From assembly GCA_025966295.1 (NCBI GenBank), contig JAOPVD010000034.1, forward strand, positions 1-37,655: DNA of 37,655 bases, in the 5' to 3' direction. Shown piece after piece: positions 3,670 to 23,316 of the stretch. Each line of letters begins with the position of its first letter. Positions within the stretch are counted from its first letter, which is position 1. This DNA is from Frankiales bacterium (lineage in GTDB: Bacteria > Actinomycetota > Actinomycetes > Mycobacteriales > SCTD01). The position numbers and the translations under genes are program-made. The notes under the pieces were generated by a model. The model had not been told where the DNA came from. It did no database searches and saw only the letters and a list, made by a program, of their open reading frames with translations.

Positions 3670-4204
3670 CCTTGCCCGGGTTGCGCCAGGAGTGCGTCTG
3701 CACGGTGCGGAAGTGCAGCGAGTCCCCCGGCTTGAGCCGGTAGACCTGCTCGTTGACGACGAACTCCAGCTGGCCGTCGAGCACGTGGACCAGCTCCTCG
3801 CCGGGGTGCACCAGAGGGCGGTCGCCGCTGCTCGCGCCCGGCTCGACGGTGGCTCGGGCACCGGCCAGGAAGAAGCGCCCGTAGGTCCCGCTGATACCGG
3901 CCAGGCCGATGCCCGTGTGCGAGGTGTAGATCGGGCGCTGGTCGCCGTCCTTGGTGAAGACGGTGGGGTCGGAGGTGTCCCCCGCCTCGTCGACGAAGTA
4001 CGCCACCGGCCGCCCGAGCGCACCCGCCACCTTCAGCAGCGTGGTGATCGTGGGGACCATCCCGCCCTGCTCGATCTTGTGGATGGCCGCGGCCGAGACC
4101 TCGGAGCGCTCCGCCAGCTGCTGGAGCGACAGGCCGGCCTGCTTGCGCAGGGTGCGGACCTTCGGGCCGATGTCGGACACGATCCGTGTCAGCTCTTCGG
4201 TCAT
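3629..4204 (-). CDS. XRE-family HTH regulator with C-terminal cupin domain
   Basis: MTEELTRIVSDIGPKVRTLRKQAGLSLQQLAERSEVSAAAIHKIEQGGMVPTITTLLKVAGAL (HTH) plus VHPGEELVHVLDGQLEFVVNEQVYRLKPGDSLHF (cupin). Confidence 0.9.
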   Translation of the reverse strand: MTEELTRIVSDIGPKVRTLRKQAGLSLQQLAERSEVSAAAIHKIEQGGMVPTITTLLKVAGALGRPVAYFVDEAGDTSDPTVFTKDGDQRPIYTSHTGIGLAGISGTYGRFFLAGARATVEPGASSGDRPLVHPGEELVHVLDGQLEFVVNEQVYRLKPGDSLHFRTVQTHSWRNPGKVSATALWMALRPQ

Positions 4205-4372: not shown

Positions 4373-5704
4373 GTGTCCCGTCGCATCGTCATCGTTGGTG
4401 GAGGTGCCGCCGGCATCGGTGCGGCAGGTGCGGCCAAGGGCACCGACCCGACCGCCGAGATCACCGTGTTCACCGAGTACCAGGACGCGGCCTACAGCCC
4501 GTGCGGCATCCCCTACGTGCACGGCAAGGAGATCCCCGACTTCGAGCGCCTGTTCCTCGGAACCAAGCAGCAGTACGCCGACCAGGGGATCGACATCCGC
4601 TACGAGACCCGGGTCGACAGCTACGACCTGGGCGCCAAGACGGTCTCGGTCGGAGGGCAGCAGCTGCCGTTCGACGCCCTGGTGGTGGGCAGCGGCTGGA
4701 ACTACGGCAAGCCCGACGTGCCCGGTAACGAGCTGTCCGGGATCTACTACATGAAGAACATCCGCGAGGCCATGGAGTGGGACAAGGTCCTCGACACCGT
4801 GAAGAGCGCGGTCGTCCTGGAGGCCGGACCGCTCGGACTCGAGATGGTCACGGCCCTCGCCCACCGCGGGATCGAGACGCACCTCGTCGACCCGACCCCG
4901 TGGGCGCTGTCGATGGCGACCGACCCCGACATCGCCAAGCCCGTCGAGGACTCCTGGGTCGAGATGGGCGTCCACCTGCACTTCAACACCAAGCTGGAGG
5001 AGATCCTCGGCGACGAGAACGGCGCCGTCCGCGGAGTCCGCACCTCCGACGGCGACATCCCCTGCCAGCTGCTGGTCGTCGCCACGCACAAGGTCCCGAA
5101 CACTGACATCGGGCAGGCAGCGGGCCTCAAGGTCGGCTCGGCCGGTGGCTTCATCGTCGACGAGTCCATGGCCACCTCGGTGCCGGGCGTGTGGGCGGCC
5201 GGGGACTGCATCGAGGTACCGCACGGCGTCTCCAACGTGCCCGTGCAAGGCCTGTCCGGCAGCCACGCCTACGCCCAGGGCAAGGTGGCGGGCATCAACG
5301 CTGCCGGCGGGCAGCGCGCCTACCAGCCGGTCTACGTGCCGTGGGGCATGGTCGCCGGCAAGTGGATGATCGGCGGGGTGAGCTTCAGCGAGACCCTCGC
5401 GACCGCGCTCGGCGTGCCCTTCGTGATGGGCGTCGCGCAGGGCATCTCGCGCGCCCGGTACTACCCGGACATGAAGCCGGTGAAGGTGAAGCTGCTCGCC
5501 GAGCCGGGGACCCTGCGGCTCATCGGCGCCCAGATGGTGGGTGGCGAGGGCATCAAGGAGCGGGCAGACTTCCTGGCCATGGCAGTGCGTACCGGCATCA
5601 CGCTCAGGGACCTGGCCACCATGGAGAACGTGTACTCGCCGCCCATCGGCGCGCTCAACGAGCCGATCGCGCTGGCCGCGCAGAACGCGCTGTCGAAGCT
5701 GTGA
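4373..5704 (+). CDS. FAD-dependent pyridine nucleotide-disulfide oxidoreductase (CoA-disulfide reductase/Nox-like)
   Basis: RRIVIVGGGAAGIGAAGAA FAD motif, AAYSPCGIPYVHG redox Cys motif, GVWAAGDCIEV; GTG start with GAAGGAG RBS. Confidence 0.85.
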   Translation: MSRRIVIVGGGAAGIGAAGAAKGTDPTAEITVFTEYQDAAYSPCGIPYVHGKEIPDFERLFLGTKQQYADQGIDIRYETRVDSYDLGAKTVSVGGQQLPFDALVVGSGWNYGKPDVPGNELSGIYYMKNIREAMEWDKVLDTVKSAVVLEAGPLGLEMVTALAHRGIETHLVDPTPWALSMATDPDIAKPVEDSWVEMGVHLHFNTKLEEILGDENGAVRGVRTSDGDIPCQLLVVATHKVPNTDIGQAAGLKVGSAGGFIVDESMATSVPGVWAAGDCIEVPHGVSNVPVQGLSGSHAYAQGKVAGINAAGGQRAYQPVYVPWGMVAGKWMIGGVSFSETLATALGVPFVMGVAQGISRARYYPDMKPVKVKLLAEPGTLRLIGAQMVGGEGIKERADFLAMAVRTGITLRDLATMENVYSPPIGALNEPIALAAQNALSKL

Positions 5705-5967
5705 GCGCACCCAGGCAGTCCTTCCCGCGCTGGCTGCGCAGCACCTCCGAGCACCACCTGCTGGTGGTCGCCCAGGCCAAGGTGGCGCGTCGCAACGGGC
5801 TGGTGCCGCCCAAGCCCCACGGTCTCGACATCTTCTGGCAGAAGGTCTACGCGCCCGTCTTCTACCTCCTGCCGTATTCGCTCCGGGCCAAGGCGGCCAA
5901 CGCCCTGCCCGGCAGCCACAAGCAGACCTGGCACCAGCCCGATCAGGTGAAGGGGCCGGCCGTCTGA
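5701..5967 (+). CDS. Small conserved-looking protein of unknown function
   Basis: GTG start overlaps upstream stop by 4 nt; MSAPRQSFPRWLRSTSEHHLLVVAQAKVARRNGLVPPKPHGLDIFWQKVYAPVFYLLPYSLRAKAANALPGSHKQTW. Confidence 0.65.
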   Translation: MSAPRQSFPRWLRSTSEHHLLVVAQAKVARRNGLVPPKPHGLDIFWQKVYAPVFYLLPYSLRAKAANALPGSHKQTWHQPDQVKGPAV

Positions 5968-6025: not shown

Positions 6026-6517
6026 ATGAGCTCGCAGACCAACAACATCCCGAGGGCCCAAGAGGGCGACATCCTCTACGACACCAGCGAGAAGGTCTTC
6101 CCGGACATCCAGGCGGAGCCGGGTGAGACGGCCTTCGTGTTCATCCACTCGGTGCCCTTCGAGGGCTCCGTGGCGCTGGTCAACCTGCTCACCTCGACGC
6201 GCCTGCGTCGCAAGGGCTTCGACGTCAGCATCGTGCTGTACGGCCCGGCCGTCCTCATCGCCTCCGCCACCCGGGGCTACCCGTCCGTGGGCAAGGAGGG
6301 CTTCCCCGGCAACCTGTCGATGAACAAGCAGCTCAAGGTCCTCATGGACGAGGGCGCCAAGATCTACGCCTGCCGCTTCGCGATGGGTGCGCTCTACGGC
6401 ATGCGCGAGGACGACCTCATCGAGGGCGTCAAGGCCTTCAGCCCGCTCGACGTGCTCGACTCCGCGCTGACCGCGTGGCGTCAGAAGTCCTTCCAGCTCA
6501 ACACCTGGACGGTCTGA
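6026..6517 (+). CDS. DsrE-like protein, MSMEG_0572/Sll0783 nitrogen-starvation family (Nit1C component)
   Basis: FPDIQAEPGETAFVFIHSVPFEGSVALVNLLTSTRLRRKGFDVSIVLYGPAVLIASATRGYPSVGKEGFPGNLSMNKQLK...YACRFAMGALYG...SPLDVLDSAL...NTWTV. Confidence 0.85.
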   Translation: MSSQTNNIPRAQEGDILYDTSEKVFPDIQAEPGETAFVFIHSVPFEGSVALVNLLTSTRLRRKGFDVSIVLYGPAVLIASATRGYPSVGKEGFPGNLSMNKQLKVLMDEGAKIYACRFAMGALYGMREDDLIEGVKAFSPLDVLDSALTAWRQKSFQLNTWTV

Positions 6518-6598: not shown

Positions 6599-7267
6599 AT
6601 GGACGGCGTTCACGACATGGGCGGCAGGCCCGAGCACTTCGGGCCACTGAAGCCGCTCGACCCGGCGGAGAAGCCCTTCGGTGAGCCCTGGGAGGGACGG
6701 GCCTTTGCCGTGACCCTCCTGGCCAACCGCGCCGCCACGGCCTCCAACCTGCACGCCTTCCGGCACGCGCTCGAGCGCGTCCCCGAGAAGGAGTACCTGG
6801 CCGACTACTACGGCCGCTGGCTCGGCAGCGCCGAGATCCTGCTGGTCGAGAGCGGCCTGCTGGCGCCCGGCGCCGTCGAGGCGCGCGCCCGCAAGCTGCG
6901 CGGCGAGGCGGTCGAGGATCCGGCCGACCCCGAGCCGAACAAGCCCACCATGGAGAGTGGTGGCGGCGGCAACCTACGGAGCGTCGAGGCGGCCCCCGCC
7001 TTCGCCGTAGGTGACCGCGTCACGACCAGCAGCGACGCGGCCAGCGGCCACACCCGCCTGCCCGGCTACGTCCGCGCCAAGGTCGGTACCGTCACGGCGC
7101 TGCGCCCGGCGCAGGTGCTGCCCGACACCGCGGCGCACTTCATCGGGGAGAACCCGCAGCACGTCTACAGCGTCACCTACGACGCCCACGACCTGTGGCG
7201 CGCCGACAGCGAGCCGTTCAGCCTGACCATCGACCTCTACGAGAACTACCTGGAGCGCGCGCAGTGA
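6599..7267 (+). CDS. nthB: Nitrile hydratase subunit beta
   Basis: [41 protein letters not shown]...; C-terminal FAVGDRVTT...[16 protein letters not shown]...[14 protein letters not shown]3-like domain. Confidence 0.95.
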
Positions 7268-7872
7268 CGCAGGCAGACATGCAGCCCGGCATCGACCTGG
7301 CGCTGCGGACCGAGGCCCTCGAGTCCCTGCTGCTGGAGCGCGGCCTGGCCGACACCAAGACGATCGAGACCTTCATCGGGATCTACGAGACCCAGGTCGG
7401 CCCGATGAACGGCGCCAAGGTGGTCGCCAAGGCCTGGACCGACCCGGAGTACAAGGCCCGGCTGCTGGCGGAGGGCACCGCGGCCATCGCGGAGCTGGGC
7501 TTCAAGGGCCCGCAGGGCGAGCACATGGTGGTCCTCGAGAACACACCCGCGGTGCACCACGTCGTGGTCTGCACGCTGTGCTCCTGCTACCCCTGGCCCG
7601 TCCTGGGCCTGCCGCCGTCTTGGTACAAGGACTCGGCGTACCGATCGCGCGTGGTCAGGGAGCCGCGCGCGGTGCTGGCCGAGTGGGGCACCGTGCTCGG
7701 CGACGACGTCGAGGTGAAGGTCGTGGACTCCAGCTCGGAGGTCCGCTACTTCGTGCTGCCCGAGCGCCCTGCGGGCACCGAGAGCCTGTCCGAGGAGGAG
7801 CTCGCCGCCCTCGTCACGCGCGACAACATGGTGGGGGTCACCAAGGTCAGCACCGGGGTCGCTGCCCCGTGA
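7264..7872 (+). CDS. nthA: Nitrile hydratase subunit alpha, Co-type
   Basis: [48 protein letters not shown] metal claw (Thr variant typical of Co-type). Confidence 0.95.
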
Positions 7873-8234
7873 CCGCGGCCCTCGACGTCGACGGCGCCGC
7901 TGCGCCGCCCCGGCAGAACGGCGAGCTGGTCTTCGCCGAGCCCTGGGAGGGCCGCGCGTTCGGCCTCGCCATGGCGCTCACCGACGCGGGCGTCATCTCC
8001 TACGACGTGTTCCGCGACGCTTTGATCGCGAAGATCGCCGCCTGGGAGTCCGCCCCGCCCGCGGGCGAGTGCTACTCCTACTACCGCTGCTGGCTGCAGG
8101 CGCTCGAGCAGGTGCTCGCCGACGCCCAGCTCGTGGCTCCGGACGACGTCGCCGCGCGCGCCGCTCTGTTCGCCGTCCGCCCGGCAGGGCACGATCATGA
8201 CCATGACCACGACCACGAGCACCACCACGACTGA
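7869..8234 (+). CDS. Nitrile hydratase accessory/activator protein with His-rich C-terminal tail
   Basis: [43 protein letters not shown]...[13 protein letters not shown] (beta-subunit N-domain-like) ending [15 protein letters not shown]. Confidence 0.88.
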
Positions 8235-8628
8235 GCGGGGCGGCACCAACTCGGCCGTCGCGACCTGGGCGGGCGGATGGCGCTGCGACGTCGAGGCGGG
8301 CGGCTTCTCGCTCGTGGTCGACGAGCCGGTCGACGTCGGCGGTACCGGGCTGGGCCCGATGCCGACCGACCTGCTGCTGGCGTCGATGTCGTCCTGCTAC
8401 GCGCTCGCGCTGGCCTGGGCGGCGAGCAAGCGCGGTGTCGTGCTGCCGGACCTCCAGGTGACGGCGACCGGTACCTACAACGGTCAGAAGTTCGCGGCGC
8501 TGCTGCTCACCGTGACCACGTCGCTGCCGGCGCAGGAGCTGGCGCCGCTGCTCGAACCCGCCAAGCGGGTCTGCTACGTCTCCAACACCTTCGCGCACGC
8601 GCCGGTCATCGAGGTGGAGGTGGCATGA
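8197..8628 (+). CDS. OsmC family protein
   Basis: VDVGGTGLGPMPTDLLLASMSSCYALALAWAASKRGVVLPDLQVTATGTYNGQKFAALLL; 38-nt overlap with preceding CDS. Confidence 0.82.
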   Translation: MTMTTTTSTTTTERGGTNSAVATWAGGWRCDVEAGGFSLVVDEPVDVGGTGLGPMPTDLLLASMSSCYALALAWAASKRGVVLPDLQVTATGTYNGQKFAALLLTVTTSLPAQELAPLLEPAKRVCYVSNTFAHAPVIEVEVA

Positions 8629-9179
8629 GCCCGCGCCCGGCCCACGACCACGTGCACGACCCGGCGTGCGCGGCCGCGCACGGCGACGCGGTGCCGCCCA
8701 AGGACACCCGCCGCCTCGTGCTGGTCTTCGTCTCGCCGGTGGCGCAGGAGCTCGCCGCGCTGGCCGACCGGCTGGGCTGGCCGGTCACGGTCGTGGATCC
8801 CGACTCGGCGCTGGTCGACATCGATCCCATCCCCTACGCCCGGACCGTGACGACGGTCGCTGCCGCGCGGCTCGACGACGGCTGCGACGTGGTGCTCTGC
8901 GACCACGGCCGGCCGGAGCTCGGTGACGTGCTCGCCGCGGTGCTGGCGCAGCCGGCGCGCTGGGTGGGGGTCATGGGCAGCCTGCGGCACACCGCCCCGC
9001 ACATCGCGGCGCTGCGCAGCCGGGGCGTGGCCGAGGACGACATCGCCCGGGTCCATCGGCCCATCGGCCTCGACATCGGCTCGCACACCCCGCCGGAGAT
9101 CGCGATCGCCACGGTGGCCGGGCTTCTCGCCGACCGCAACGGCCGCCCCGGCGGTCCGTTCGCCGACACCAGCAGCTGA
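8625..9179 (+). CDS. XdhC/CoxI-family Rossmann-domain protein with His/Cys-rich N-terminus
   Basis: WVGVMGSLRHTAPHIAALRSRGVAEDDIARVHRPIGLDIGSHTPPEIAIATVAGLLADRNGRPGGPF; N-terminal AHDHVHDPACAAAHGD. Confidence 0.85.
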   Translation: MSPRPAHDHVHDPACAAAHGDAVPPKDTRRLVLVFVSPVAQELAALADRLGWPVTVVDPDSALVDIDPIPYARTVTTVAAARLDDGCDVVLCDHGRPELGDVLAAVLAQPARWVGVMGSLRHTAPHIAALRSRGVAEDDIARVHRPIGLDIGSHTPPEIAIATVAGLLADRNGRPGGPFADTSS

Positions 9180-9224: not shown

Positions 9225-10637
9225 TCAGCGTCCCCGTGCCAGGCGCGCGTCGAGGTCGAGCAGCGCATCCCGGAAGCAGGCCAGCGGCGCCGCGGCGACC
9301 CCCGCCCCGACCTGCCCGGTGCCCTGGCGGTTGTCCAGGATCCCGGTGGTCACCTTGGGCGTGATGCCGTGCTCCACGACCCGTCGTACGTCGACGGCGA
9401 GGGGCGTGCCGCGGCCGCCCAGGGTCGGCAGGGTGAAACGGCTCGAGCGCCCGACGCAGATCCGCTCGAGCTCGGCCGTCAGCTCGCCCGCAGCGGCAAG
9501 GCCTCCCACCAGCTGACCGACGGCGGGCGAGCCTGCGGCGGCGGCGCCGCCCAGGCCGATGAGCTCCAGGACCGCGCTGTCGCCGATGTCCGGAGCGGCG
9601 TCGTCGTCGCCCCTGCCGGGGTGGTACAGCGCGTTGCCGACCATGGGCGCGGGGGCGAGGAACCACTCGTCGTTCCCGGACAGCCTGGTGCCGAACTCCG
9701 TGCCGTTGCGGGCCATGGTCGTGACCACCGAGGAGCCCTCGACCTGCCCGGCCCAGCCCGTCAGAGCGCGGGCCGCGGCCATCGCCAGGGTCAGGAACAA
9801 CAGGTGGTTGCTCGACAGGTAGCGACCGACCTCGACCCGGCGTGGGTCGGCACTGGCCATCAAGGAGGGCAGCAGGTGCTTGATCAGCAGGTTGGTGGAG
9901 GCCTGGGTGCGGACGTGGACGTCGTCGCCCATGGCCACGCCCTGGGCGGCGAACGCCAGGACCTCCACCGGTCCGCTGTGGCGCAGCGTCTCGGCGAGCA
10001 GCGGGGCGACGGCCTCGCGCAGCAGGACCAGCCGGTCGATCGCCCCCGGGGTGTCACGGCCGAACCACGCGACGTCCCCGGAGCCCTGCCCCAGCGGCGC
10101 CCAGGACGCCACCCCGCCGGCGGCGAGCTCGACGACCCACACCGGCGTCGTCGGGCCCATCACGGTGGCCATCGGGACGACACCGCCCGACTCGTTGGCG
10201 GGCCGCAGCGCGACGGAACCGCTCGCCAGCAGGGCATCTGCGGCCTCGACGTCGGCTGCCCAGCCCTCGGCCACGACCGCCGCGCGCATCGAGCGGCGCA
10301 GCGGGTCACCCGCGTCGGCCAGCTCCATCGCCGGACCCGCGTGCAGCAGCACCCGACCCTGCAGGCCGGGCACGACCTCGGACGCCGGGCGCACATCGGT
10401 GAGAGTCGGGACGCCGGTGTCCAGCCGGCGCAGGACCTCCGCGTTGGCCTCGTCAATGGGCCCGGTCAGCGGGCCCGAGAGCCGGCGCAGCGCGTCCAGG
10501 GCGACGGGGTCGCCGCCGGCGGGGATACGCCAGTCCACCTGGACGACCGGTCGTCCCTGGGCCGCGACGGCGTCCGCGAACAGCGGCAGCCCGACGTTGA
10601 CGACGGACACCTCGTCCGGAAGGGCAATGGGGTTCAT
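9225..10637 (-). CDS. DUF1116 (YlbE/AllG-like) protein, putative carbamoyltransferase component
   Basis: SVVNVGLPLFADAVAAQGRPVVQVDWRIPAGGD...NEAN-type IDEANAEVLRRL...RNGTEFGTRLSGNDEWFLAPAPMVGNALYHPGRGDDDAAPDIGDSAVLELIGLGG. Confidence 0.83.
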   Translation of the reverse strand: MNPIALPDEVSVVNVGLPLFADAVAAQGRPVVQVDWRIPAGGDPVALDALRRLSGPLTGPIDEANAEVLRRLDTGVPTLTDVRPASEVVPGLQGRVLLHAGPAMELADAGDPLRRSMRAAVVAEGWAADVEAADALLASGSVALRPANESGGVVPMATVMGPTTPVWVVELAAGGVASWAPLGQGSGDVAWFGRDTPGAIDRLVLLREAVAPLLAETLRHSGPVEVLAFAAQGVAMGDDVHVRTQASTNLLIKHLLPSLMASADPRRVEVGRYLSSNHLLFLTLAMAAARALTGWAGQVEGSSVVTTMARNGTEFGTRLSGNDEWFLAPAPMVGNALYHPGRGDDDAAPDIGDSAVLELIGLGGAAAAGSPAVGQLVGGLAAAGELTAELERICVGRSSRFTLPTLGGRGTPLAVDVRRVVEHGITPKVTTGILDNRQGTGQVGAGVAAAPLACFRDALLDLDARLARGR

Positions 10638-12148
10638 GCCGTGATCTCCTGTCCCTGTCCGGCGGCCAGTGCACGGGCGGTCGAGAGCAGGTCACGCTCG
10701 GCGGCGTGGAACCCTTCTCGGCGTCCTTGCGCCAACGCACGCAGCTGCTGCGCTTGGTCGCGGCAGTCCTGCGCCATCTGCTCCACCACGGGCGGGGCGG
10801 CCCCACCCGTGGCGGTGCGGGTCTCGACGATGTGTCGCGGGTCGAGCACGTCGGTGAGGTCTGTTCCGGTCAGCCCGACTGACCGGCCGGCCTGCTCCAG
10901 CGCGGCCTCGTCGAGCATCGCGCCGTCGATGTCGATCCCGCGCAGCCCGGCGGCGTTCGCCTTGCGCACGGCGACACCGACGACCTGGTAGGCGGTGCGG
11001 TAGTCCAGGTCGCACGTCTGCATCACGTACTCCGCCAGGTCCGTGGCCTGGCAGAAGCCGTTCTCGAGCGCTGACCACATCCGCGCGGTGTTGACCTGCA
11101 GCGTGCGGATCACGCCGTCGGTCAACCGGGTGGTGCGGAGCGCCAGGTCGAGGGCGCGCGGGACCTCGCCGTACGCGTAGATGAGGTTGTCGCTGCGCGC
11201 CGACGGGCTCTTGATGACGGCGAGGAAGCCGCTCAACCGGCCGATGAGAGTGCCCGAGGCGCCGCGGATGATCGACAGCGCGTAGGGGTTGCGCTTCTGC
11301 GGCATCAGGACGCTGGACCGGCTGAACCCGTCGGCGACCGTGACGTAGTCGAACTCGCTGCTGGCCCAGATCTCCAGGTCCTCCGCCAGCTTGCTCTGCG
11401 TCCCGACGAGCGAGGCAGCCGCGGCCAGGACGTCGACCAGGCCATCGGTCTGCCACATCGCGTCGCGGGTGTGCTCGATGACGCCGTCGAAGCCCAGCAT
11501 GCTCGCGACCGGCCGGCGGTCGTCGAGCAGGCGGCTGCCGTTGACGCACCCGGCTCCACCGGGGCTGGTGTTGGTCCAGGCCAGGGCATCGACGAGCCGG
11601 CGGGTGTCACGCAGCACGGGATAGGCGAACGACAGCAGGTAGTGGCCGTACGTCGACGGCTGCGCGTGCTGCAGGTAGGTCTGGTCGGGCAACCAGCTGC
11701 GGCTGTGCTCGGCGGCGCTGAGGGCGAGGGTGTCCGCGAGCTGGGCCGCGCGGTCGACCAGCTCGGTGATCTGCCCCCGCAGGTGCAGGCGCAGCGCGAT
11801 GCGGACCGCCTCGCGCCGGGGCCGGCCGGCATGCAACCACCCGGCGTCGTCCCCGATCTGCTCGGTGAAGAAGCGCTCCCGGCTGTTGTACGGCTCCCCG
11901 TAGGCAGGGTCGTAGGGGAAGTCCTCGGGCGCGGTTCCGTGCGTCTCGAGCAGCAGGGCCAGGAGGCGCCGCGCCGGCTCGACGGGAATCACGCCGCGTC
12001 CGCGCAGGTCGAGCACGTGCGCGAGGTCGGCGAGGTTCAAGCCGGCGTGCAGCAGCGGCGCGTCGGCGTTCTCGAGGTGGAACCCCGACTCGACGAGCTC
12101 AGGGGCGGGCCCGTCGAGCGGCGGGCCGAGCCGGTGTCCGGCGGTCAT
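10634..12148 (-). CDS. Aspartase/fumarase superfamily enzyme, argininosuccinate lyase-like
   Basis: YNSRERFFTEQIGDDAGWLHAGRPRREAVRIALRL...TYLQHAQPSTYGHYLLSF...FSRSSVLMPQKRNPYALSIIRG. Confidence 0.87.
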   Translation of the reverse strand: MTAGHRLGPPLDGPAPELVESGFHLENADAPLLHAGLNLADLAHVLDLRGRGVIPVEPARRLLALLLETHGTAPEDFPYDPAYGEPYNSRERFFTEQIGDDAGWLHAGRPRREAVRIALRLHLRGQITELVDRAAQLADTLALSAAEHSRSWLPDQTYLQHAQPSTYGHYLLSFAYPVLRDTRRLVDALAWTNTSPGGAGCVNGSRLLDDRRPVASMLGFDGVIEHTRDAMWQTDGLVDVLAAAASLVGTQSKLAEDLEIWASSEFDYVTVADGFSRSSVLMPQKRNPYALSIIRGASGTLIGRLSGFLAVIKSPSARSDNLIYAYGEVPRALDLALRTTRLTDGVIRTLQVNTARMWSALENGFCQATDLAEYVMQTCDLDYRTAYQVVGVAVRKANAAGLRGIDIDGAMLDEAALEQAGRSVGLTGTDLTDVLDPRHIVETRTATGGAAPPVVEQMAQDCRDQAQQLRALAQGRREGFHAAERDLLSTARALAAGQGQEITA

Positions 12149-13074
12149 CTGTCTTCTCCCATGAATCCGGCGACCGCGTCGAGCAGGCCACCTGTGTGCC
12201 AGAACAGCGCTGCCTGGTCGCCGACGGCGGCCGGCAGCACGGCGAGTGCCTTCGCCGTGTACACGGGGTCGAGGACGAGTCCCTCCGCCCGCAGGGCCAG
12301 GCACGCGGCGGCGTCACCGGCGGCCGAGGCCAGGCCGTGCCCGGGGCCGCGGGCGTCGACCAGCTCGACGTCGTCGGCCCGAGGGGCCGGCTCGCCGCGC
12401 AGGGCCGCCACCTGCCGGGCGAGGTCGAGCACCTGCACGTCCTCCACGGGTCGGCTCACCGAGGCGCCGACGATCCGGAGCGGACGGCCGTGGGCGACGT
12501 TGCCGGCGATGAGCCCGGCGAGGGTCCCGCCGGCACCGCAGGCGATCACGACCACCGGCCGGCGTCCCTGGAGCTGCTCGAGCAGCTCGTCGACGGCGAC
12601 GCGGTAGGCGTCCGCGCCCGTCGCGCTGGCTCCGCCCCTGGGCACGACGTACGGCGAGAAGCCCTGTTCCCTGAGGGCGGCGGCCGTGACGGGCAGCTGG
12701 GCGTCGACGCTGGCGCGGTCGGCGTCACCGGTGAAGCGGACCTCGGCGCCCCACGCCGCGGCCGCCGCGAGGTTGGGGTGGGAGGTGAGCGGCACCGGGT
12801 CGCCGGCCAGCACCAGGACGCAGCGCAGGCCGCCCCAGGCGGCGGCGGCCGAGGCGGCCTGGACGAAGTTGGACCCCGGCGTGCCACCGGTGACCAGGAC
12901 GTCGGCGTGCTGGGCCTGGGCGTCGGCGACGATCGGCGCCAGCTGCCTGGCCTTGTTGCCGGCGACGGCGAAGCCGGTGAGGTCGTCACGCTTGACGAGC
13001 AGCGACGTGACCCCCAGGGCTGCGGCCAGCCGAGGGGCCTGGACGAGCGGGGTCGGGAGCAGGGCCAGGGTCAC
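12145..13074 (-). CDS. PLP-dependent D-cysteine desulfhydrase/ACC deaminase-like enzyme
   Basis: LPTPLVQAPRLAAALGVTSLLVKRDDLTGFAVAGNKARQL...VLVTGGTPGSNFVQAAS...VVIACGAGGTLAGLIAG; GTG start overlaps upstream stop. Confidence 0.86.
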   Translation of the reverse strand: MTLALLPTPLVQAPRLAAALGVTSLLVKRDDLTGFAVAGNKARQLAPIVADAQAQHADVLVTGGTPGSNFVQAASAAAAWGGLRCVLVLAGDPVPLTSHPNLAAAAAWGAEVRFTGDADRASVDAQLPVTAAALREQGFSPYVVPRGGASATGADAYRVAVDELLEQLQGRRPVVVIACGAGGTLAGLIAGNVAHGRPLRIVGASVSRPVEDVQVLDLARQVAALRGEPAPRADDVELVDARGPGHGLASAAGDAAACLALRAEGLVLDPVYTAKALAVLPAAVGDQAALFWHTGGLLDAVAGFMGEDR

Positions 13075-14402
13075 GGCCACTGCTCTGGCTCGTCGGCGCG
13101 CGCCTTGCGGGCGCGCAGGACGACGTGGTCGACCATCTCGCCGGCCGAGCCGGCCGCCGGGTGCAGCGCCGCGATCTCCTGCGGCGTCAGCAGGTCCGCC
13201 ACCACCGCCGTGAGGGACCGTCCGGTGGAGAGGGCCTGCTGCAGCGTGTCCTGGGCCTGGTGCTTGCCGAGCCGGGTGGTGAGCACGGCCAGGACCTGCT
13301 CGCTGCCGGTGGCGTCGCCGAGGTTGCGGCGCATGGCCTCGGTGTCGACCTCCAGGCCCTCGACGAGCTCGACGGCGAGGGACGTGGCTGTCGCGGTCAG
13401 CAGGCACACCTCCGGCAGCGCCACCCACTCGGCCTTCCAGCTGCGGCCGTCGCGCTCGTGCCCGCCCACCATGCCCTCGAGCAGCACCGCGGCCTGGGCG
13501 CGGGTCAGGCGGGCCAGGGTGTCGAGGTGCTCGCTGCGCTCGGGGTTGACCTTGTGCGGCATGGTGATGCTGCCGACGACACCGGGGCGCGGCGTCTCGC
13601 GCAGCTCGCCGATCTCCGGGCGCTGCAGCTCGTAGACCTCGCCCCCGAGGCGCGCCAGCGTGCCGGTGACCATCGTCAGTACGGCGCCGACCTCGGCGAT
13701 CCGGTCACGTGCGGTGAGCCAGGAGATCCCCGGGTCGGCAAGGCCCAGCTCGGCGCAGAGCCGCTGGCGCACGGCTGGGCCGGCGGGCCCGAGCGCGGCC
13801 AACGTGCCGACACCGCCGCCGAGCTGACCCACCAGCCAACGGGGTGCGCCCTCGTGCAGGCGGTCGAGGTGACGGCGCACCTCGTCGGCCCAGGAGGCGG
13901 CTTTGAGGCCGAAGGTGACGGGTGCCCCGGGCTGCCCGTGGGTGCGGCCGGGGCCCAGGGTGTCCCTGTGCAGCTCGGCCAGCTCCAGCAGCAGCTCCTC
14001 CAGCCGCCGCAGGTCCCGGCGCACCTCGCGCAGCACGGCCCGCAGGGCGAGAGAGGTCCACGTGTCGGTCAGGTCCTGCACGGTGGCGCCGACGTAGACG
14101 TACGGGTGCACGTCGTCGTCGAGCACCTGCCGGAGGGCCCGGATCAGCCCGAGGGTCGAGTGGCCGCTGGCGCGGGTCTCGGCCGCGACCAGGTCCAGGT
14201 CGAGCAGGTCGACCGACGCGCGCTCGGTGATCTGGTCCGCGGCCGCAGCGGGCACCAGACCCTCCAGGGCCTGCGCCCTGGCGAGCGCCGCGAGGACCTC
14301 GAGCCAGCCCTGCAGCCGGCCGCTCTCGCAGAAGACGGCGCGCACGGCAGGGGTGCCCCAGAGGTGGCCGTACATCCCGGACTCGGTGATGCGGGCACTC
14401 AC
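13071..14402 (-). CDS. Aspartase/fumarase superfamily enzyme, adenylosuccinate lyase/PcaB-like
   Basis: GPGRTHGQPGAPVTFGLKAASWADEVRRHLDRL...GVVGSITMPHKVNPERSEHLDTLARL. Confidence 0.88.
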   Translation of the reverse strand: MSARITESGMYGHLWGTPAVRAVFCESGRLQGWLEVLAALARAQALEGLVPAAAADQITERASVDLLDLDLVAAETRASGHSTLGLIRALRQVLDDDVHPYVYVGATVQDLTDTWTSLALRAVLREVRRDLRRLEELLLELAELHRDTLGPGRTHGQPGAPVTFGLKAASWADEVRRHLDRLHEGAPRWLVGQLGGGVGTLAALGPAGPAVRQRLCAELGLADPGISWLTARDRIAEVGAVLTMVTGTLARLGGEVYELQRPEIGELRETPRPGVVGSITMPHKVNPERSEHLDTLARLTRAQAAVLLEGMVGGHERDGRSWKAEWVALPEVCLLTATATSLAVELVEGLEVDTEAMRRNLGDATGSEQVLAVLTTRLGKHQAQDTLQQALSTGRSLTAVVADLLTPQEIAALHPAAGSAGEMVDHVVLRARKARADEPEQWP

Positions 14403-15271
14403 GGCTGGGCCAGCTGCACGGCGCTGTCGAGGGCCTCCCGCAGGTGCCCGAAGGACGCGCCCCACGGCACGACGACGACCTGGCCGTCGGTCTCGACGTG
14501 CTCCTCGAGCAGACAGCACTTGGTCAGCAGCACCTCTCCGGGTGCGAGGTCGACGGCCTTTGCCAGCACCCGCGGGCAGGTGTCTACCTGGCGCACGTCG
14601 TCGTCGTAGAGGAAGTCGTGGATCGCGCGTGACCGGGCGCAGCCCAGCAGCGTCCAGTCCTGCCGGGGCGGCACCTCGTCGAGGTAGTGGACCGTGGTAC
14701 CGGGCACCTCCATGCCGCCGCCGCGGCAGGGCAGCAGGTAGTGGCCCGAGGCACCGGCGGGCACGAGGTCACCGAGCTCGACGACCTCCGGCACGGGGAG
14801 GACCCCTGGCAGCTCCTCGGCGGTGGCGAGCACCCGCTGGACCTGGTCGAGCAGCTTGGCCGGGTGTGGCGGTGCCACGTCGAGCACGTGCAGGCGCACC
14901 GGCGCGCTGTCGAGCACGAAGCTGATGTGGCCGTAGCGGCCCTCGAGGACCACGCAGCGCACGCCGGGCCGCATCGACGCGGCGCGGGCCAGGTCGCTCG
15001 GGATGCCGGGATCCAGGGCGTCGTCCACGACCCAGGCGGTCTCGTCGGGACCGGCCAGCAGCCGCACGTCGAGCACGTCCCAGAACAGCGAGTCCGACGC
15101 GCGCTTGTCGACCTCGACCAGGGCGGTCTCCCCGGCGTGACGGAGGACGAGGTACCGGGTGCGGCGGTAGACCGGCCGCGACATCAGCAGCTCGCGCAGC
15201 GCCGCGGCCGTCAGGGGGACATCGACGTCGGTGACCGAGACCTCGCGGTAGCGGTCGGGGATCGTGGTCAC
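14399..15271 (-). CDS. Uncharacterised protein in putative sulfonate/CoM-like operon
   Basis: GTG start overlaps upstream stop by 4 nt; translation VTTIPDRYREVSVTDVDVPLTAAALRELLMSRPVYRRTRYLVLRHAGETALVEVDKRASDSLFWDVLDVRLL...LLTKCCLLEEHVETDGQVVVVPWG. Confidence 0.75.
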   Translation of the reverse strand: MTTIPDRYREVSVTDVDVPLTAAALRELLMSRPVYRRTRYLVLRHAGETALVEVDKRASDSLFWDVLDVRLLAGPDETAWVVDDALDPGIPSDLARAASMRPGVRCVVLEGRYGHISFVLDSAPVRLHVLDVAPPHPAKLLDQVQRVLATAEELPGVLPVPEVVELGDLVPAGASGHYLLPCRGGGMEVPGTTVHYLDEVPPRQDWTLLGCARSRAIHDFLYDDDVRQVDTCPRVLAKAVDLAPGEVLLTKCCLLEEHVETDGQVVVVPWGASFGHLREALDSAVQLAQP

Positions 15272-16029
15272 CGAGCGCGCACCCGGCTGTCGAAGGTGTC
15301 GGCCCGCAGACCCACCCGGAGGGCCTCGAGGCCGAGAGCGTCGGACGGTGCGACGTTGGCGAGGTTGACGTCCGGGCCGAAGCGGCGGATCAGCCAGGCC
15401 TGCTGCTCCTTCAAAGGTGCCTCGAACACCGTCGTGTCGAGCCCGACGGCGTCGACGACGGCGTCGACCACGTCGGACCGCACCTCCCCCGTCGGGTCGA
15501 ACAGCCCCACGGTGCCGCTCTCCCTGCCCTCGGTGACGATCCAGGTGGCGCCGGCCTCGAGGTCGGCCGTCGCGTCGGCCGCCCACGCCGACGGCGAGAC
15601 CGTGGCGTCGGCGTCCTTGACGCCGATCTCGGCGAGCACGATGAAGCGCTCCGCGGCGAGCTCGACCAGCTCGCGCTTGTCCGTGACCGACATGGCGGCG
15701 ACGCCGCAGGAGACCTCGACGCAGGGAAAGCCGAGCTCGCCCGCCCAGTCGAGGTAGGGCTCGACCGCGCCCTGCTGCCACGCGACCTCGAGCAGCGTGC
15801 CCCCGAGGCAGGCCAGCACTCCGTGACCGTCGAGCACCGCCAGCTTCTCGGCCAGCCCGGGGTCGAGGTAGGCCGTGCCCCAGCCGAGCTTCCACACGTC
15901 GACGTAGTCGCCGCAGACCCCGAGAAGGGGGGCCACCTCGGCGACGGGCATGCCCTTGTCGAGCACGTGGGTGATACCGCGGCGACGAGGCTTCGCCGTC
16001 CGCGCGGGCAGGGTCAGGAAACTCGGCAT
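15268..16029 (-). CDS. Phosphosulfolactate synthase (ComA) family protein; alternative start 16041
   Basis: GITHVLDKGMPVAEVAPLLGVCGDYVDVWKLGWGTAYL...GFPCVEVSCGVAAMSVTDKRELV...VTEGRESGTVGLFDPTGEVR...FEAPLKEQQAWLIRRFGPDVNLANVAPSDALGLEALRVGLRADTF. Confidence 0.92.
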   Translation of the reverse strand: MPSFLTLPARTAKPRRRGITHVLDKGMPVAEVAPLLGVCGDYVDVWKLGWGTAYLDPGLAEKLAVLDGHGVLACLGGTLLEVAWQQGAVEPYLDWAGELGFPCVEVSCGVAAMSVTDKRELVELAAERFIVLAEIGVKDADATVSPSAWAADATADLEAGATWIVTEGRESGTVGLFDPTGEVRSDVVDAVVDAVGLDTTVFEAPLKEQQAWLIRRFGPDVNLANVAPSDALGLEALRVGLRADTFDSRVRAR

Positions 16030-16032
16030 GGC

Positions 16033-16049
16033 GTTCACCATGGTAGACA
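16033..16049. promoter_or_regulatory. Candidate shared operator, site D
   Basis: GTTCACCATGGTAGACA between divergent comA-like and AIR synthase-like genes. Confidence 0.5.
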
Positions 16050-16085
16050 ACCGGCTCCCCGCCGACGCCGCTTCAGGAGGCTCCC

Positions 16086-17033
16086 GTGACCGATCTCGCC
16101 GCCCTGGCCGCCGGCCTGCGAGACCTCCCCGGCGTGCGCGCCAAGGCCGACATCGGCCTGGTCGCGGAGGTCTTCGGCGGCGGTGACTGGTACGCCGGCC
16201 CCGGTGACGACGGCGCGGTGCTGCCCGACGGGCCGGGACAGGTGGTCGTGGGTGGCGAGGCGATCCTGCCGGCGTTCGTGGCTGCGGACCCGTACGGGGC
16301 TGGCATCGCGGCAGTGCTGGCCAACGTCAACGACCTGGCCGCGATGGGCGCGCGGCCCGTTGCCCTGCTCGACACCGTCGTCGGTGACGAGGCGACGAGC
16401 CGCGAGGTGCTGCGCGGCATGCAGTGGGCCGCCGACCTGTACCAGGTCCCGGTGGTCGGGGGGCACCTCACGCGTACCGACGGTCCGCCGTCGCTGTCGG
16501 CCTTCGGCATCGGCCGTGCGGACAAGGTGCTGTCGGCGACCCACGCGGCGGCCGGTCAGGTCCTCGTGCTGGGCTGCTGCCTGGAAGGGACGATGCGCCA
16601 GGACTTCTTGTTCTTCCCCTCCTTCGAGCAGCGCGGAGCGCAGCTCGCCGGCGACGTGCGGCTGCTGGCCGACCTGGCGACGAGCGGTGCGGCAGTTGCC
16701 GCGAAGGACGTGAGCATGGCGGGCCTGGTCGGCTCGCTCGCGATGCTGCTCGAGGCGGGCCGGCTCGGCGTGACCGTCGACCTCGACGCGCTGCCCGTGC
16801 CGGACGGTGTACCGCTGGCCGACTGGCTCGGGTGCTTCCCCTGCTTCGCGTTCTTGCTGACCTGCCCCGCCGACCGGGTAGCGGACTGCCTGGCGGGCTT
16901 CCGCGGTCGCGGTCTGACGGCCGAGGCGCTGGGGGTGCTCGACACCAGCGGGCAGGTGCGGTTGCGGCGCGGGGACGAGGTGGCGACGGTGTTCGACCTG
17001 GTCACTGAGGGCGTCACGAACCTGCGCAGCTAG
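16086..17033 (+). CDS. AIR synthase-like protein, sll0787 family (Nit1C component)
   Basis: PGDDGAVLPDGPGQVVVGGEAILPAFVAADPYGAGIAAVLANVNDLAAMGARPVALLDTVVGD...VPVVGGHLTRTDGPPSLSAFGIGRAD. Confidence 0.88.
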   Translation: MTDLAALAAGLRDLPGVRAKADIGLVAEVFGGGDWYAGPGDDGAVLPDGPGQVVVGGEAILPAFVAADPYGAGIAAVLANVNDLAAMGARPVALLDTVVGDEATSREVLRGMQWAADLYQVPVVGGHLTRTDGPPSLSAFGIGRADKVLSATHAAAGQVLVLGCCLEGTMRQDFLFFPSFEQRGAQLAGDVRLLADLATSGAAVAAKDVSMAGLVGSLAMLLEAGRLGVTVDLDALPVPDGVPLADWLGCFPCFAFLLTCPADRVADCLAGFRGRGLTAEALGVLDTSGQVRLRRGDEVATVFDLVTEGVTNLRS

Positions 17034-17038
17034 GCAGG

Positions 17039-17515
17039 TCATAGCGCGATCGTCATGTCCTGGTGGAGCACACCGAGGTAGTCGGCGGGCTCGCCTACCG
17101 GTGTCCACCCGAGGTGCACGAAGAAGGTCGTGTTCACGGCCTGCACCGTCGCGTCCATGCGGCGACCGCCGGCGGCGGCCGCGGTGGCGACGGCGGTCCG
17201 GACCAGCGGTGCTCCGATGCCGGCGTGCCGGTGCTCGGGCAGGACGGCGAGCCGGTCGCCCTTCCACACCCCGTCGCTGAGCGGGTAGAGCCGGACGGTG
17301 CCGGCGGGCTCGTCATCGACGAAGCCCAGGACGTGCACCACCTGGGCGTCGTCGTCGTGGCTGTCGCGGTCGTCGCCGTCGAACAGCCGCTGCTCCTGCA
17401 CGAACACGGCCCGCCGGATGCGGTGGTGCGTCGCGAGCTCGTCGGGGCCCTGGACGGACCGGCAGCGGAGCGCGTCAGGCCTTCGTGAACAGGGGGAGGG
17501 AAGGACGTCCGTCAC
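17039..17515 (-). CDS. GNAT N-acetyltransferase, MSMEG_0567/Sll0786 family (Nit1C component); start uncertain
   Basis: HHRIRRAVFVQEQRLFDGDDRDSHDDDAQVVHVLGFVDDEPAGTVRLYPL...GDRLAVLPEHRHAGIGAPLVRTAVATA...VHLGWTPVGEP. Confidence 0.86.
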   Translation of the reverse strand: MTDVLPSPCSRRPDALRCRSVQGPDELATHHRIRRAVFVQEQRLFDGDDRDSHDDDAQVVHVLGFVDDEPAGTVRLYPLSDGVWKGDRLAVLPEHRHAGIGAPLVRTAVATAAAAGGRRMDATVQAVNTTFFVHLGWTPVGEPADYLGVLHQDMTIAL

Positions 17516-18665
17516 GAGTGCCTCCGTCCGAACGCTCGAACGCGCCCATGCCCGAGCAGGCCTGGCAGCGGGCGCAGCCGGCGGCGACGCCCGAGCTCGA
17601 CATCCCCTTTTGCGCCAGGTACGGCACCACCTGGCGGTAGACCGCCTCGACCGCCTCGCGCGGCGGCGGCAGGAAGTCCTCCATCAGGCTGCCGGGCACC
17701 GGACGCAGCGGCACGATGAACGGGTAGACGCCCAGGTCGATGGCCCGCTTGCAGCCCTCGACGGTCAGCTTCTCGTCCTCGCCAATGCCGAGGATCACGT
17801 AGGTCGACACCTGGCCGGCGCCGAAGGCCTTCACCGCTCGTTCCCAGGCCCCGAAGTAGGCCTCGATGCCCCAGCGCGCCTTGCCCGGTGCGACCCGGGC
17901 GAGCACCGCCGGGTCGAAGGTCTCGATATGGATGCCGACCGAGTCGATGCCCAGGTCGGCCACCCGGTCGATGACGTCGAGGTCGGACGGCGGTTCGAAC
18001 TGCACCTGCACCGGCAGCCCGGCCGCCTCCTTCACGGCCTGCCCGCAGCGACCGACGTACATCGCCCCGCGGTCGGGGGTAGCGGTGCTGCCCGTGGTCA
18101 GGGTCGCGTCGACCGCGCCGTCGAGCTCCTTTGCCGCGAGGGCCACCTCGGCCAGCATCGCCGGGGTCTTCTTCGCGATGGTGCGGCCCTGGGCCAGCGT
18201 GACGCCGATGCCGCAGAACTGGCACTGGTCGTCGTTGCCCCAGTAGGCGCAGGTCTGCAGCACCGTGCTGGCCACGGAGTCCAGGTGCAGCAGGGCGATC
18301 TGGTGGTAGGGGATGCCGTCGGCGGTCGTCAGGTCGTAGTACTTCGGGCGGGGGGCCAGGGCGGCGGTCGCGAGCCGCTCGCTGCCCTGGTAGACCGCCC
18401 AGCTGCCGTCGTCCTCCCCACGCAGGGCATAGGGCGAGCTCTCGACGTACGACGCACTCGTCGGCACCGTGGTCTGCACGCCCTCGATGTACAGCATCCC
18501 GGCGTCGGCCGGTCCGGCGCCGCCGGCGCGGGCGGACAGCGGCACCTCGACCCGCAGCCCGGAGCTCTGCAGCGACGTCAGCAGCTGCGCCAGGGCCTCG
18601 GCGGACAGCACGGGGGCCGGAGCTGGGGTGTCGATGCCGTGGGCATCGGACGTGGTGAGGGTCAT
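17475..18665 (-). CDS. Radical SAM protein, MSMEG_0568 family (Nit1C component)
   Basis: LQTCAYWGNDDQCQFCGIGVTLAQGRTIAKKTPAMLAEVALAAKELDGAVDATLTTGSTATPDRG...VSTYVILGIGEDE...GCARCQACSGMG. Confidence 0.88.
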   Translation of the reverse strand: MTLTTSDAHGIDTPAPAPVLSAEALAQLLTSLQSSGLRVEVPLSARAGGAGPADAGMLYIEGVQTTVPTSASYVESSPYALRGEDDGSWAVYQGSERLATAALAPRPKYYDLTTADGIPYHQIALLHLDSVASTVLQTCAYWGNDDQCQFCGIGVTLAQGRTIAKKTPAMLAEVALAAKELDGAVDATLTTGSTATPDRGAMYVGRCGQAVKEAAGLPVQVQFEPPSDLDVIDRVADLGIDSVGIHIETFDPAVLARVAPGKARWGIEAYFGAWERAVKAFGAGQVSTYVILGIGEDEKLTVEGCKRAIDLGVYPFIVPLRPVPGSLMEDFLPPPREAVEAVYRQVVPYLAQKGMSSSGVAAGCARCQACSGMGAFERSDGGTRDGRPSLPLFTKA

Positions 18666-18730: not shown

Positions 18731-19396
18731 TCAAGGGTTGGGGGTACCTCGCCGCAGCGCCTCGGCCCGGGCGTCGCGCTCGCCGGCGCCCGGATACGAC
18801 GTGGCGGACGCACCTGTCTCGCGGGACTCCGTGACCGAACCGGTGGCCAGATCGACGTGCAGCGGCTCGACGGCGTGCACCACGCTGGTGAAGTCCTCGT
18901 CGGGGGTGGCCGTCACGAGCAGCGCCCGGCCGGTGGCGACCTCGACCTCGAGCCGGTGGTAGGGCACGAACGGGTCGCCCTCGGGGTGACCCGCTTCCTC
19001 TACCACGACCCATTCCTGGCCGGAGCGACGCGCGTCGGCGAGCGTGCGCAACCGCCGCGCGACGGCCTGCTCGCCCACCACCTCCCGGTGCCGCATCGCC
19101 AGCGCGGCGTCGGCCACCAGGGCGAGGTCGAGCTCGGCAGGGCTCATCCCGCTGTCGGTCAGCACGTCGACCACGAGGTCGGGGCCGCGCTCGGCGGCGA
19201 GCAGGAGGGCGGCGGTCGACGGCCCCAGCTCACGCAGGCGGTCGACCGTCATCCGGACGAGCTGCACCACCCGCTGGTAGATGTCCGGCCGCGAGGTCAC
19301 CGAGGGGTACAGGCGCGCTTCGGCCTGCTGCCAGGCTGCGCTGGTCAGCATCGGCACCGAACTGTCGTCAAAAGCGTGATTCCCGGGCTCGGTCAT
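18731..19396 (-). CDS. Uncharacterised protein in Nit1C-like cluster
   Basis: MTEPGNHAFDDSSVPMLTSAAWQQAEARLYPSVTSRPDIYQRVVQLVRMTVDRLRELG...; co-directional with radical SAM gene. Confidence 0.7.
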   Translation of the reverse strand: MTEPGNHAFDDSSVPMLTSAAWQQAEARLYPSVTSRPDIYQRVVQLVRMTVDRLRELGPSTAALLLAAERGPDLVVDVLTDSGMSPAELDLALVADAALAMRHREVVGEQAVARRLRTLADARRSGQEWVVVEEAGHPEGDPFVPYHRLEVEVATGRALLVTATPDEDFTSVVHAVEPLHVDLATGSVTESRETGASATSYPGAGERDARAEALRRGTPNP

Positions 19397-19415: not shown

Positions 19416-19436
19416 GTTCACTATGCTGCACATGTC
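19416..19436. promoter_or_regulatory. Candidate shared operator, site B
   Basis: GTTCACTATGCTGCACATGTC between divergent hypothetical gene and carbamate kinase. Confidence 0.5.
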
Positions 19437-20418
19437 ATCTCCTATCCGATGCGCCACGCCCCTGACGCGGGGTGTAGCCGTCGTCGCCGTGGGTGGCAAC
19501 GCCCTGACCGCCGAGACCCAGCGGGGAACCGCCGACGAGATCGCTGCCAACGCCGCGCAGATGGCCAGCTGCCTCGGTGAGCTGGTCGCCGCAGGCTGGC
19601 AGGTCGCCGTCGTCCACGGCAACGGCCCGCAGGTGGGCAACCTGGCGATGCAGCAGGACGCCGCCGAGGACCTCGTCCCCGTGCAGCCGCTGCACCAGCT
19701 CTGCGCGATGACGCAGGGACAGCTCGGCAGCGTGCTGGTGCGCGCGGTCGACCGCGAGTGCGGCGCGGGGAAGGCGGTCTGCGTCGTCACCCACGTCGGC
19801 GTCGACCCGCAGGACCCGGCGTTCGAGACGCCGACCAAGCCCATCGGCCCCTTCTTCGACGAGGACCGGGCGCAGGCCTACGCCGCCCAGCGGGGCTGGA
19901 CGGTCGCGGAGGACTCCGGGCGCGGCTGGCGCCGGGTCGTCGCCTCGCCGCGACCCGAGTCGATCGTCGAGATGCAGGCCATCCGCACGCTGCTCGAGGC
20001 CGGCCACGTCGTGCTCGCCGCCGGCGGCGGCGGGGTGGCGGTTGATGCCGGCAGCCTCGACGGGGTCGACGCGGTCATCGACAAGGACCGCGCGTCGGCA
20101 GCGCTCGCCACCGCGGTCGGCGCCACCGAGCTGTACCTGCTGACCGGCGTCGACTGTGTGCTGCTGGACTTCGGCACGCCACGGCAGCGACCCGCCCACC
20201 GCATGACGCAGCAGGAAGCCGCCCAGCACCTGGCGGACGGGCAGTTCCCCGCGGGCAGCATGGGCCCCAAGGTCGAGGCAGCACTGCGCTTCCTGGACGA
20301 CGGCGGGCACCGCGCCATCATCACGTCCGTCGGGCGCCTGGCGGAAGCCGTGGCCGGCGATCCCACCGCGGGCACGAGCATCGAGCGGGCGCACGCCGCC
20401 ACCCGGACGGCGTCATGA
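19432..20418 (+). CDS. arcC: Carbamate kinase; start uncertain (19423, 19432 or downstream GTG)
   Basis: GVAVVAVGGNALTAETQRGTADEIAANAAQMASCLGELVAAGWQVAVVHGNGPQVGNLAMQQDAAED...VLAAGGGGVAVDAGSLDGVDAVIDKDRASAALA...GSMGPKVEAALRFL. Confidence 0.92.
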   Translation: MSSPIRCATPLTRGVAVVAVGGNALTAETQRGTADEIAANAAQMASCLGELVAAGWQVAVVHGNGPQVGNLAMQQDAAEDLVPVQPLHQLCAMTQGQLGSVLVRAVDRECGAGKAVCVVTHVGVDPQDPAFETPTKPIGPFFDEDRAQAYAAQRGWTVAEDSGRGWRRVVASPRPESIVEMQAIRTLLEAGHVVLAAGGGGVAVDAGSLDGVDAVIDKDRASAALATAVGATELYLLTGVDCVLLDFGTPRQRPAHRMTQQEAAQHLADGQFPAGSMGPKVEAALRFLDDGGHRAIITSVGRLAEAVAGDPTAGTSIERAHAATRTAS

Positions 20419-23226: not shown

Positions 23227-23316
23227 TGGCGGTGGCGGTGGGATTTGAACCCACGGACGGCTTGCACCGTCACACGCTTTCGAGGCGTGCTCCTTCGGCC
23301 GCTCGGACACGCCACC
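23227..23316 (-). tRNA. tRNA-Ser (anticodon CGA), CCA encoded
   Basis: Minus strand GGTGGCGTGTCCGAGCGGCCGAAGGAGCACGCCTCGAAAGCGTGTGACGG...GTGGGTTCAAATCCCACCGCCACCGCCA. Confidence 0.96.

Follow-up and report, generated by a model that had tools for sequence, protein, structure and literature searches.

A contig of 37,655 nucleotides from a Frankiales bacterium (JAOPVD010000034.1 of assembly GCA_025966295.1; the whole of this stretch is called the window) carries a six-gene operon on its minus strand, from position 16029 to 9225. Judged by sequence, the bacterial enzyme set for coenzyme M (CoM) biosynthesis, XcbA to XcbE, is complete in this operon. In the 5' to 3' direction, the genes encode ComA/XcbB (15268-16029), XcbA/DUF7714 (14399-15271, with the start placed at the GTG codon at 15271 by sequence inspection), XcbD (13071-14402), XcbE (12145-13074), XcbC (10634-12148), and AllG/DUF1116 (9225-10637), a subunit of the oxamate carbamoyltransferase type. 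All five junctions are start/stop overlaps of four base pairs, an arrangement typical of tightly coupled operons. An earlier interpretation made from the letters alone, the sequence-only reading, had placed these genes at the same coordinates and on the same strand, and had proposed that they represent CoM-type biosynthesis outside an alkene context. That proposal was supported by every sequence test that was run.

The assignment of the individual proteins was based on profile models. ComA/XcbB is a predicted phosphosulfolactate synthase, as had been claimed, with a strong match to the Pfam ComA family (PF02679, 1.6e-80) and 243 bits to TIGR03849 (cut-off 280). XcbD belongs to the aspartase/fumarase superfamily and had been described as PcaB-like, but of the Xcb class; its best model was indeed that of XcbD (NF052536, 554 bits). 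Likewise, the protein that resembles argininosuccinate lyase scored best with the XcbC model (NF052535, 446 bits, versus 273 bits for the argH model). The pyridoxal phosphate (PLP) enzyme of the D-cysteine desulfhydrase family was matched best by the XcbE model (NF052537, 238 bits, cut-off 450), followed by CuyA with 173 bits and a model related to 1-aminocyclopropane-1-carboxylate deaminase with 171 bits. The fifth protein had been listed as uncharacterised; it is present as described, but it can be named, because it matched the XcbA model with 300 bits at a cut-off of 150 (NF052538). XcbA thus exceeded its curated NCBIfam cut-off, whereas ComA, XcbC, XcbD, and XcbE stayed below theirs, although for XcbC, XcbD, and XcbE these were the best-matching models. 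AllG was identified by PF06545 (3.1e-60). The assignments of the Xcb proteins to pathway steps were taken from the NCBIfam names, from PMC11507031, and from background on the pathway; XcbC is assigned the putative elimination of phosphate from phosphosulfolactate. The AlphaFold model of XcbA was confident (mean predicted local distance difference test score, pLDDT, of 91), and its comparison with PDB folds yielded no match at an E value below 0.001, so that its fold is possibly new. Five cysteines of XcbA are conserved (Cys178, 207, 228, 248, and 249).

Two of the enzymes belong to families with well-known housekeeping members, and phylogenetic trees were therefore calculated that included genuine ArgH and PurB proteins from the source genome and related genomes. 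XcbC and XcbD grouped with the Xcb proteins of the alkene operons of Xanthobacter Py2, Nocardioides JS614, and Mycolicibacterium chubuense, apart from ArgH and PurB, respectively (99 and 100 in the Shimodaira-Hasegawa-like approximate likelihood ratio test, SH-aLRT). In addition, separate ArgH and PurB genes are present elsewhere in the source genome. Together, these results rule out a housekeeping identity of the two lyases, which is part of the outcome that the sequence-only reading had named as its refutation. In alignments of XcbC, XcbD, XcbE, and ComA, 5-7 sequences from alkene operons were compared with 11-12 sequences from loci like the window, and no column was found that is fixed differently in the two groups. 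Lysine K41 of XcbE is invariant across both. Because no column separates the groups and K41 is retained, the enzymes are likely to catalyze the same chemistry as their counterparts from alkene operons.

The enzyme that typifies the alkene operons, EtnE of the epoxyalkane:CoM transferase class, is absent from the window, as had been stated before, and had no match in the source genome, which is 88% complete. An alkene cluster with EtnE elsewhere in this genome was thus searched for with a negative result. Of 30 genomes in which EtnE was looked for, 29 had no match or at most a distant one. As it lacks EtnE, the locus, by its gene content, is not an alkene/CoM cluster.

Instead, the operon is surrounded by genes for nitrile and carbamoyl metabolism. 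On the plus strand, a cobalt-type nitrile hydratase is encoded completely, with a beta subunit (6599-7267; TIGR03888, above cut-off), an alpha subunit (7264-7872; TIGR01323, 293.8 bits, above cut-off), and an accessory protein (7887-8234; TIGR03889, above cut-off). The alpha subunit has the motif CTLCSC, which is also present in the cluster copies that were found, and its best PDB matches were nitrile hydratases of the cobalt type. Carbamate kinase (19423-20418, plus strand; TIGR00746, 328.8 bits, cut-off 358; NF009007 above cut-off) is followed by FdrA/AllF, the second subunit of the carbamoyltransferase type (20415-21950, plus strand; NF004760, 363 bits, cut-off 433), and by an MSMEG_0565-family glycosyltransferase related to MshA and BshA (21947-23116, plus strand; TIGR04047, 368 bits, above cut-off). 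Four genes correspond to the core of the Nit1C cluster. Three of their products scored above the cut-offs, namely the NitB-type DsrE-fold protein (MSMEG_0572/Sll0783; 6026-6517, plus strand; TIGR04044, 198.8 bits), the NitE-type GNAT N-acetyltransferase (MSMEG_0567; 17039-17515, minus strand; TIGR04045), and the NitD-type radical SAM protein of the MSMEG_0568 family (17475-18662, minus strand; TIGR04043, 380 bits). The fourth, the NitF-type AIR-synthase-like protein (sll0787; 16086-17033, plus strand; TIGR04049), scored 254 bits at a cut-off of 321.

The neighborhood contains several further genes. A flavoenzyme (4376-5704, plus strand) belongs to the FAD/NAD(P) disulfide reductases of the CoA-disulfide-reductase/NADH oxidase family (TIGR03385, 237 bits, cut-off 578.8). 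It has the active-site cysteine in the motif SPCGIPY, and the cysteine of the YSPCGIPY motif is present in 50 of the 53 relatives for which it could be determined; we propose that it acts as a CoM-disulfide oxidoreductase. The next gene encodes a small conserved protein of 88 amino acids (5701-5967, plus strand) and overlaps the upstream stop codon. The same slot is occupied in about 47 related loci, and this open reading frame between flavoenzyme and NitB is also kept in Methylocystis. An OsmC-family thiol protein (8197-8628, plus strand; PF02566) has two conserved cysteines, C67 and C126, which are near-invariant among 60 relatives. It is followed by an XdhC-C domain protein (8625-9179, plus strand; PF13478) that is limited to this locus and its closest relative. 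A conserved protein of 221 amino acids (18731-19396, minus strand) has orthologues in about 30 related loci; it had no Pfam match, and its confident AlphaFold model (pLDDT 92) had no fold match in the PDB. A transcriptional regulator with helix-turn-helix and cupin domains (3629-4204, minus strand; PF01381 and PF07883) was annotated with an inferred start codon, as the frame runs on upstream; its homologues occur in about 40 related loci, with 38-75% identity to the query used. Two tRNA-Ser genes lie at 1472-1560 (plus strand) and at 23227-23316 (minus strand). The latter lies immediately past the gene block and may be the border of an insertion.

Next, the distribution of this arrangement was analyzed. 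XcbA was present in 10 of 398 Actinomycetota genomes. In a scan of species genomes, the best 80 loci were kept; about 70 of them, from Actinomycetota and Chloroflexota, contained at least one partner gene of the window, most carried many, and 3 contained EtnE, proportions that favor window-like loci because the search patterns were built from window-like XcbA proteins. The conserved partner set comprises one nitrile-active enzyme, AllG together with FdrA, usually carbamate kinase, the flavoenzyme, and the Nit1C core. The same gene set was also found on a Methylocystis plasmid. A chance neighborhood in a single metagenome-assembled genome is ruled out, as dozens of genomes carry the same arrangement. 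The presence of nitrile and carbamoyl genes next to the operon had been noticed by the sequence-only reading; they are, however, not incidental neighbors, but conserved partners of the operon. The co-occurrence was also evident in whole genomes. Among the 398 Actinomycetota genomes, the MSMEG_0568 radical SAM protein scored above its cut-off in 9 of the 10 genomes with XcbA, compared with 22 genomes overall (hypergeometric p of about 8e-12, with the kinship of the genomes ignored). In several Pseudonocardia genomes, the Xcb locus is separate, and a second locus contains the genes for the AIR-synthase-like protein, radical SAM protein, AllG, nitrile hydratase, glycosyltransferase, FdrA, and carbamate kinase. 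In Pseudonocardia dioxanivorans, the set is split over three places; a gene that, by eye, encodes a LarE-like ATP-dependent sulfur transferase lies near its Xcb locus (L045:6047-6916). The retention of the gene set without linkage argues for a function rather than for hitch-hiking. AllG had no match in 4 of 19 genomes tested, and these were the three genomes with EtnE and one in which XcbA was found on a contig of 3.4 kb.

In a joined tree of XcbA, XcbD, and XcbC, the window-type loci of Actinomycetota formed one supported clade, apart from the actinobacterial loci with EtnE. Methylocystis was nested within this window-type clade, and the window-type loci of Chloroflexota were placed near Xanthobacter. 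This tree does not order the two settings by age. The single clade and the nested position of Methylocystis indicate that the nitrogen-type setting is thus no recent accident and that the block probably reached Methylocystis by transfer.

The nitrile-active enzyme of the partner set varies. Of 70 longer loci, 17 contained only nitrile hydratase, 17 contained only an amidohydrolase of PF04909, and 2 contained both, while the remainder were mostly cut off. The second loci of seven of these genomes again contained nitrile hydratase or amidohydrolase, and the nitrile hydratase alpha subunit was absent genome-wide in 10 of the 12 amidohydrolase genomes searched. Nitrile hydratase, amidohydrolase, and nitrilase share one slot, mostly as alternatives. 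The set thus includes two nitrile-active enzymes and one further hydrolase, which suggests that the pathway has a nitrile intermediate. A PDB sequence search with the amidohydrolase yielded nothing usable. In P. dioxanivorans, the start of a nitrile hydratase alpha gene is fused to the accessory protein and resembles a deletion remnant (L147:10635-11186); other alpha genes are present elsewhere in this genome.

The locus was compared with known systems. All five Xcb enzymes are shared with xcbA-E on plasmid pXAUT01 of Xanthobacter autotrophicus Py2 (Xaut_5051-5055), with 36-47% identity and with every compared invariant residue in common. However, in Xanthobacter, the genes adjoin a 2-hydroxypropyl-CoM lyase of the EtnE class and genes for epoxide carboxylation, whereas, in the window, nitrile hydratase, Nit1C-type, and carbamoyl genes are found and EtnE is missing. 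With Nit1C (nitABCDEFGH of Pseudomonas and cyanobacteria), which Pseudomonas needs for growth on cyanide (PMC11049912), the window shares NitB, the radical SAM protein NitD, the GNAT protein NitE, the AIR-synthase-like NitF, and the MSMEG_0565-type glycosyltransferase. In contrast to Nit1C, the nitrilase NitC had no match in the window and nitrile hydratase takes its place, the FAD enzyme is CoA-disulfide-reductase-like, and Xcb, AllG, FdrA, and carbamate kinase are added. Lacking a nitrilase gene, the locus is, by gene content, Nit1C-like, but not Nit1C proper. Homologues of FdrA (AllF), AllG, and carbamate kinase are shared with E. coli AllFGH and AllK, which form an ATP-yielding carbamoyl phosphate route; the window differs by the lack of AllH and of allantoin or oxalurate genes, and the presumed carbamoyl donor differs as well. 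AllFGH is the oxamate carbamoyltransferase, which, together with carbamate kinase, converts a carbamoyl donor to carbamoyl phosphate and ATP, and its reaction is reversible (PMC11326118). A further parallel is the plasmid of Methylocystis iwaonis SD4 (NZ_CP143315.1, about 175-202 kb), which shares with the window the full Xcb set, flavoenzyme, small open reading frame, NitB, AllG, FdrA, glycosyltransferase, regulator, AIR-synthase-like protein, GNAT protein, radical SAM protein, and OsmC protein. It differs by a Nit6803-type nitrilase in place of nitrile hydratase and by the lack of a carbamate kinase match. A frameshifted, unannotated etnE remnant lies beside this cluster (L117:3034-3395). 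Genes for a bd-type quinol oxidase and a DUF2474 protein adjoin it (L117:5263-7841); such oxidases can be cyanide-tolerant, but none was found at any other locus, and the idea that the loci generally include a cyanide-insensitive oxidase was therefore rejected.

The conserved block contains no known CoM-using enzyme, and thus a new use of CoM has to be proposed. We consider it somewhat probable that the operon uses the Xcb route with its five enzymes to make CoM or a closely similar sulfonated thiol, and that the surrounding genes use CoM to assimilate the nitrogen of a nitrile, most likely cyanide. A tentative chain of five steps, each of which we infer, would lead from CoM disulfide and cyanide to ATP. 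CoM disulfide would react with cyanide to CoM-thiocyanate and CoM, nitrile hydratase would convert CoM-thiocyanate to S-carbamoyl-CoM, and AllG/FdrA would cleave the latter by phosphorolysis to carbamoyl phosphate and CoM, as oxamate carbamoyltransferase does with oxalurate. Carbamate kinase would then yield ATP, ammonia, and carbon dioxide, while the flavoenzyme, the OsmC protein, or both would set the thiol/disulfide state. Where a nitrilase is present, it would release ammonia directly. CoM has no amine, so that its thiocyanate cannot cyclise, unlike that of cysteine. It is conceivable, if doubtful, that CoM serves as a dedicated amine-free thiol carrier for cyanide nitrogen, with cyanide yielding ATP as well as ammonia.

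Several observations weigh against this interpretation. The action of the amidohydrolase on a nitrile is putative and is a weak point. In Methylocystis, the nitrilase co-occurs with AllG and FdrA, without a carbamate kinase match. This is at odds with a strict swap and weakens the view that nitrilase simply replaces nitrile hydratase plus carbamoyltransferase. AllH was not detectable in the window, although it was found in about 25 relatives, and three Pseudonocardia flavoenzymes lack the active-site cysteine. XcbE was not found in five deep-branching actinobacterial genomes (G093, G125, G168, G190, and G255), which carry other Xcb genes nonetheless, so that the five-enzyme route does not account for thiolation in them. 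Lastly, the Nit1C cluster of Pseudomonas is presumed to have 2-hydroxynitriles as substrates and to work without CoM (PMC11049912).

The missing XcbE leads to the alternative that survives best, although we regard it as unlikely: the product would be another sulfonated compound, an amino acid or a cysteine adduct, from which the Nit1C core, with its glycosyltransferase, GNAT, radical SAM, and AIR-synthase-like proteins, would assemble a new natural product or thiol of low molecular weight, with nitrile hydrolysis as a tailoring step. The MshA/BshA-related glycosyltransferase and the GNAT protein do recall mycothiol assembly, and the lack of a PDB fold match for XcbA and the 221-amino-acid protein also counts in its favor. 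However, no alignment column sets the Xcb enzymes apart from the CoM-linked ones of alkene operons, and biosynthesis alone would leave carbamate kinase and AllG/FdrA unexplained. These carbamoyl genes also bear on a second alternative, which seems to us decidedly unlikely, namely that CoM scavenges or conjugates another electrophile, such as an isothiocyanate, an organic thiocyanate, or a reactive aldehyde, and that the nitrile genes handle an organic nitrile unrelated to cyanide. CoM is generally known as a good nucleophile, organic nitriles are the usual substrates of nitrile hydratases, and P. dioxanivorans has several alpha genes; yet the block has no conserved dedicated CoM transferase, AllG, FdrA, and carbamate kinase require a carbamoyl donor rather than a plain amide, and the Nit1C homologues point to cyanide (PMC11049912).

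It is very improbable that the pathway runs in the making direction, in which carbamoyl phosphate would carbamoylate CoM and the AIR-synthase-like protein would dehydrate the product, as HypE does, to a thiocyanate or cyanide ligand of a cofactor. The protein does share its superfamily with HypE, SelD, and PurM, and the carbamoyltransferase reaction is reversible, but the similarity to HypE is at the superfamily level (24 bits), a conserved metal-cofactor acceptor is missing, and the names of the MSMEG_0572/Sll0783 homologues refer to nitrogen starvation, which favors assimilation. Finally, an alkene/epoxide role as in Xanthobacter, with EtnE encoded elsewhere or lost and the nitrile genes as bystanders, is the least credible explanation, because the shared enzymes, the broken etnE fragment near the M. 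iwaonis copy, and the incompleteness of the source genome are outweighed by the negative EtnE searches, the separate clade of actinobacterial loci without EtnE, and the retention of the partner genes even when unlinked.

A literature search found no paper that connects CoM to Nit1C or to the present set of genes; subscription papers were largely outside its scope, and it does not prove priority. In summary, the locus represents a real and conserved setting for CoM biosynthesis that has apparently not been described before, and all its parts belong to known families. CoM has so far been tied to methanogens and alkene-eating bacteria. The location of the Xcb set in a nitrile/carbamoyl block without alkene or epoxide genes suggests a third, undescribed use. 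If true, CoM would have a third biological role beside methane/alkane and alkene metabolism, and a candidate function would be at hand for the poorly understood Nit1C proteins. The majority of the bacterial XcbA loci detected here have this conserved non-alkene setting, a warning that ComA/Xcb matches in metagenomes alone are no sign of alkene oxidation or methanogenesis. The carriers include culturable genera, among them Pseudonocardia, Nocardioides, Kribbella, Nonomuraea, and Geodermatophilus, which make a new role of CoM testable.

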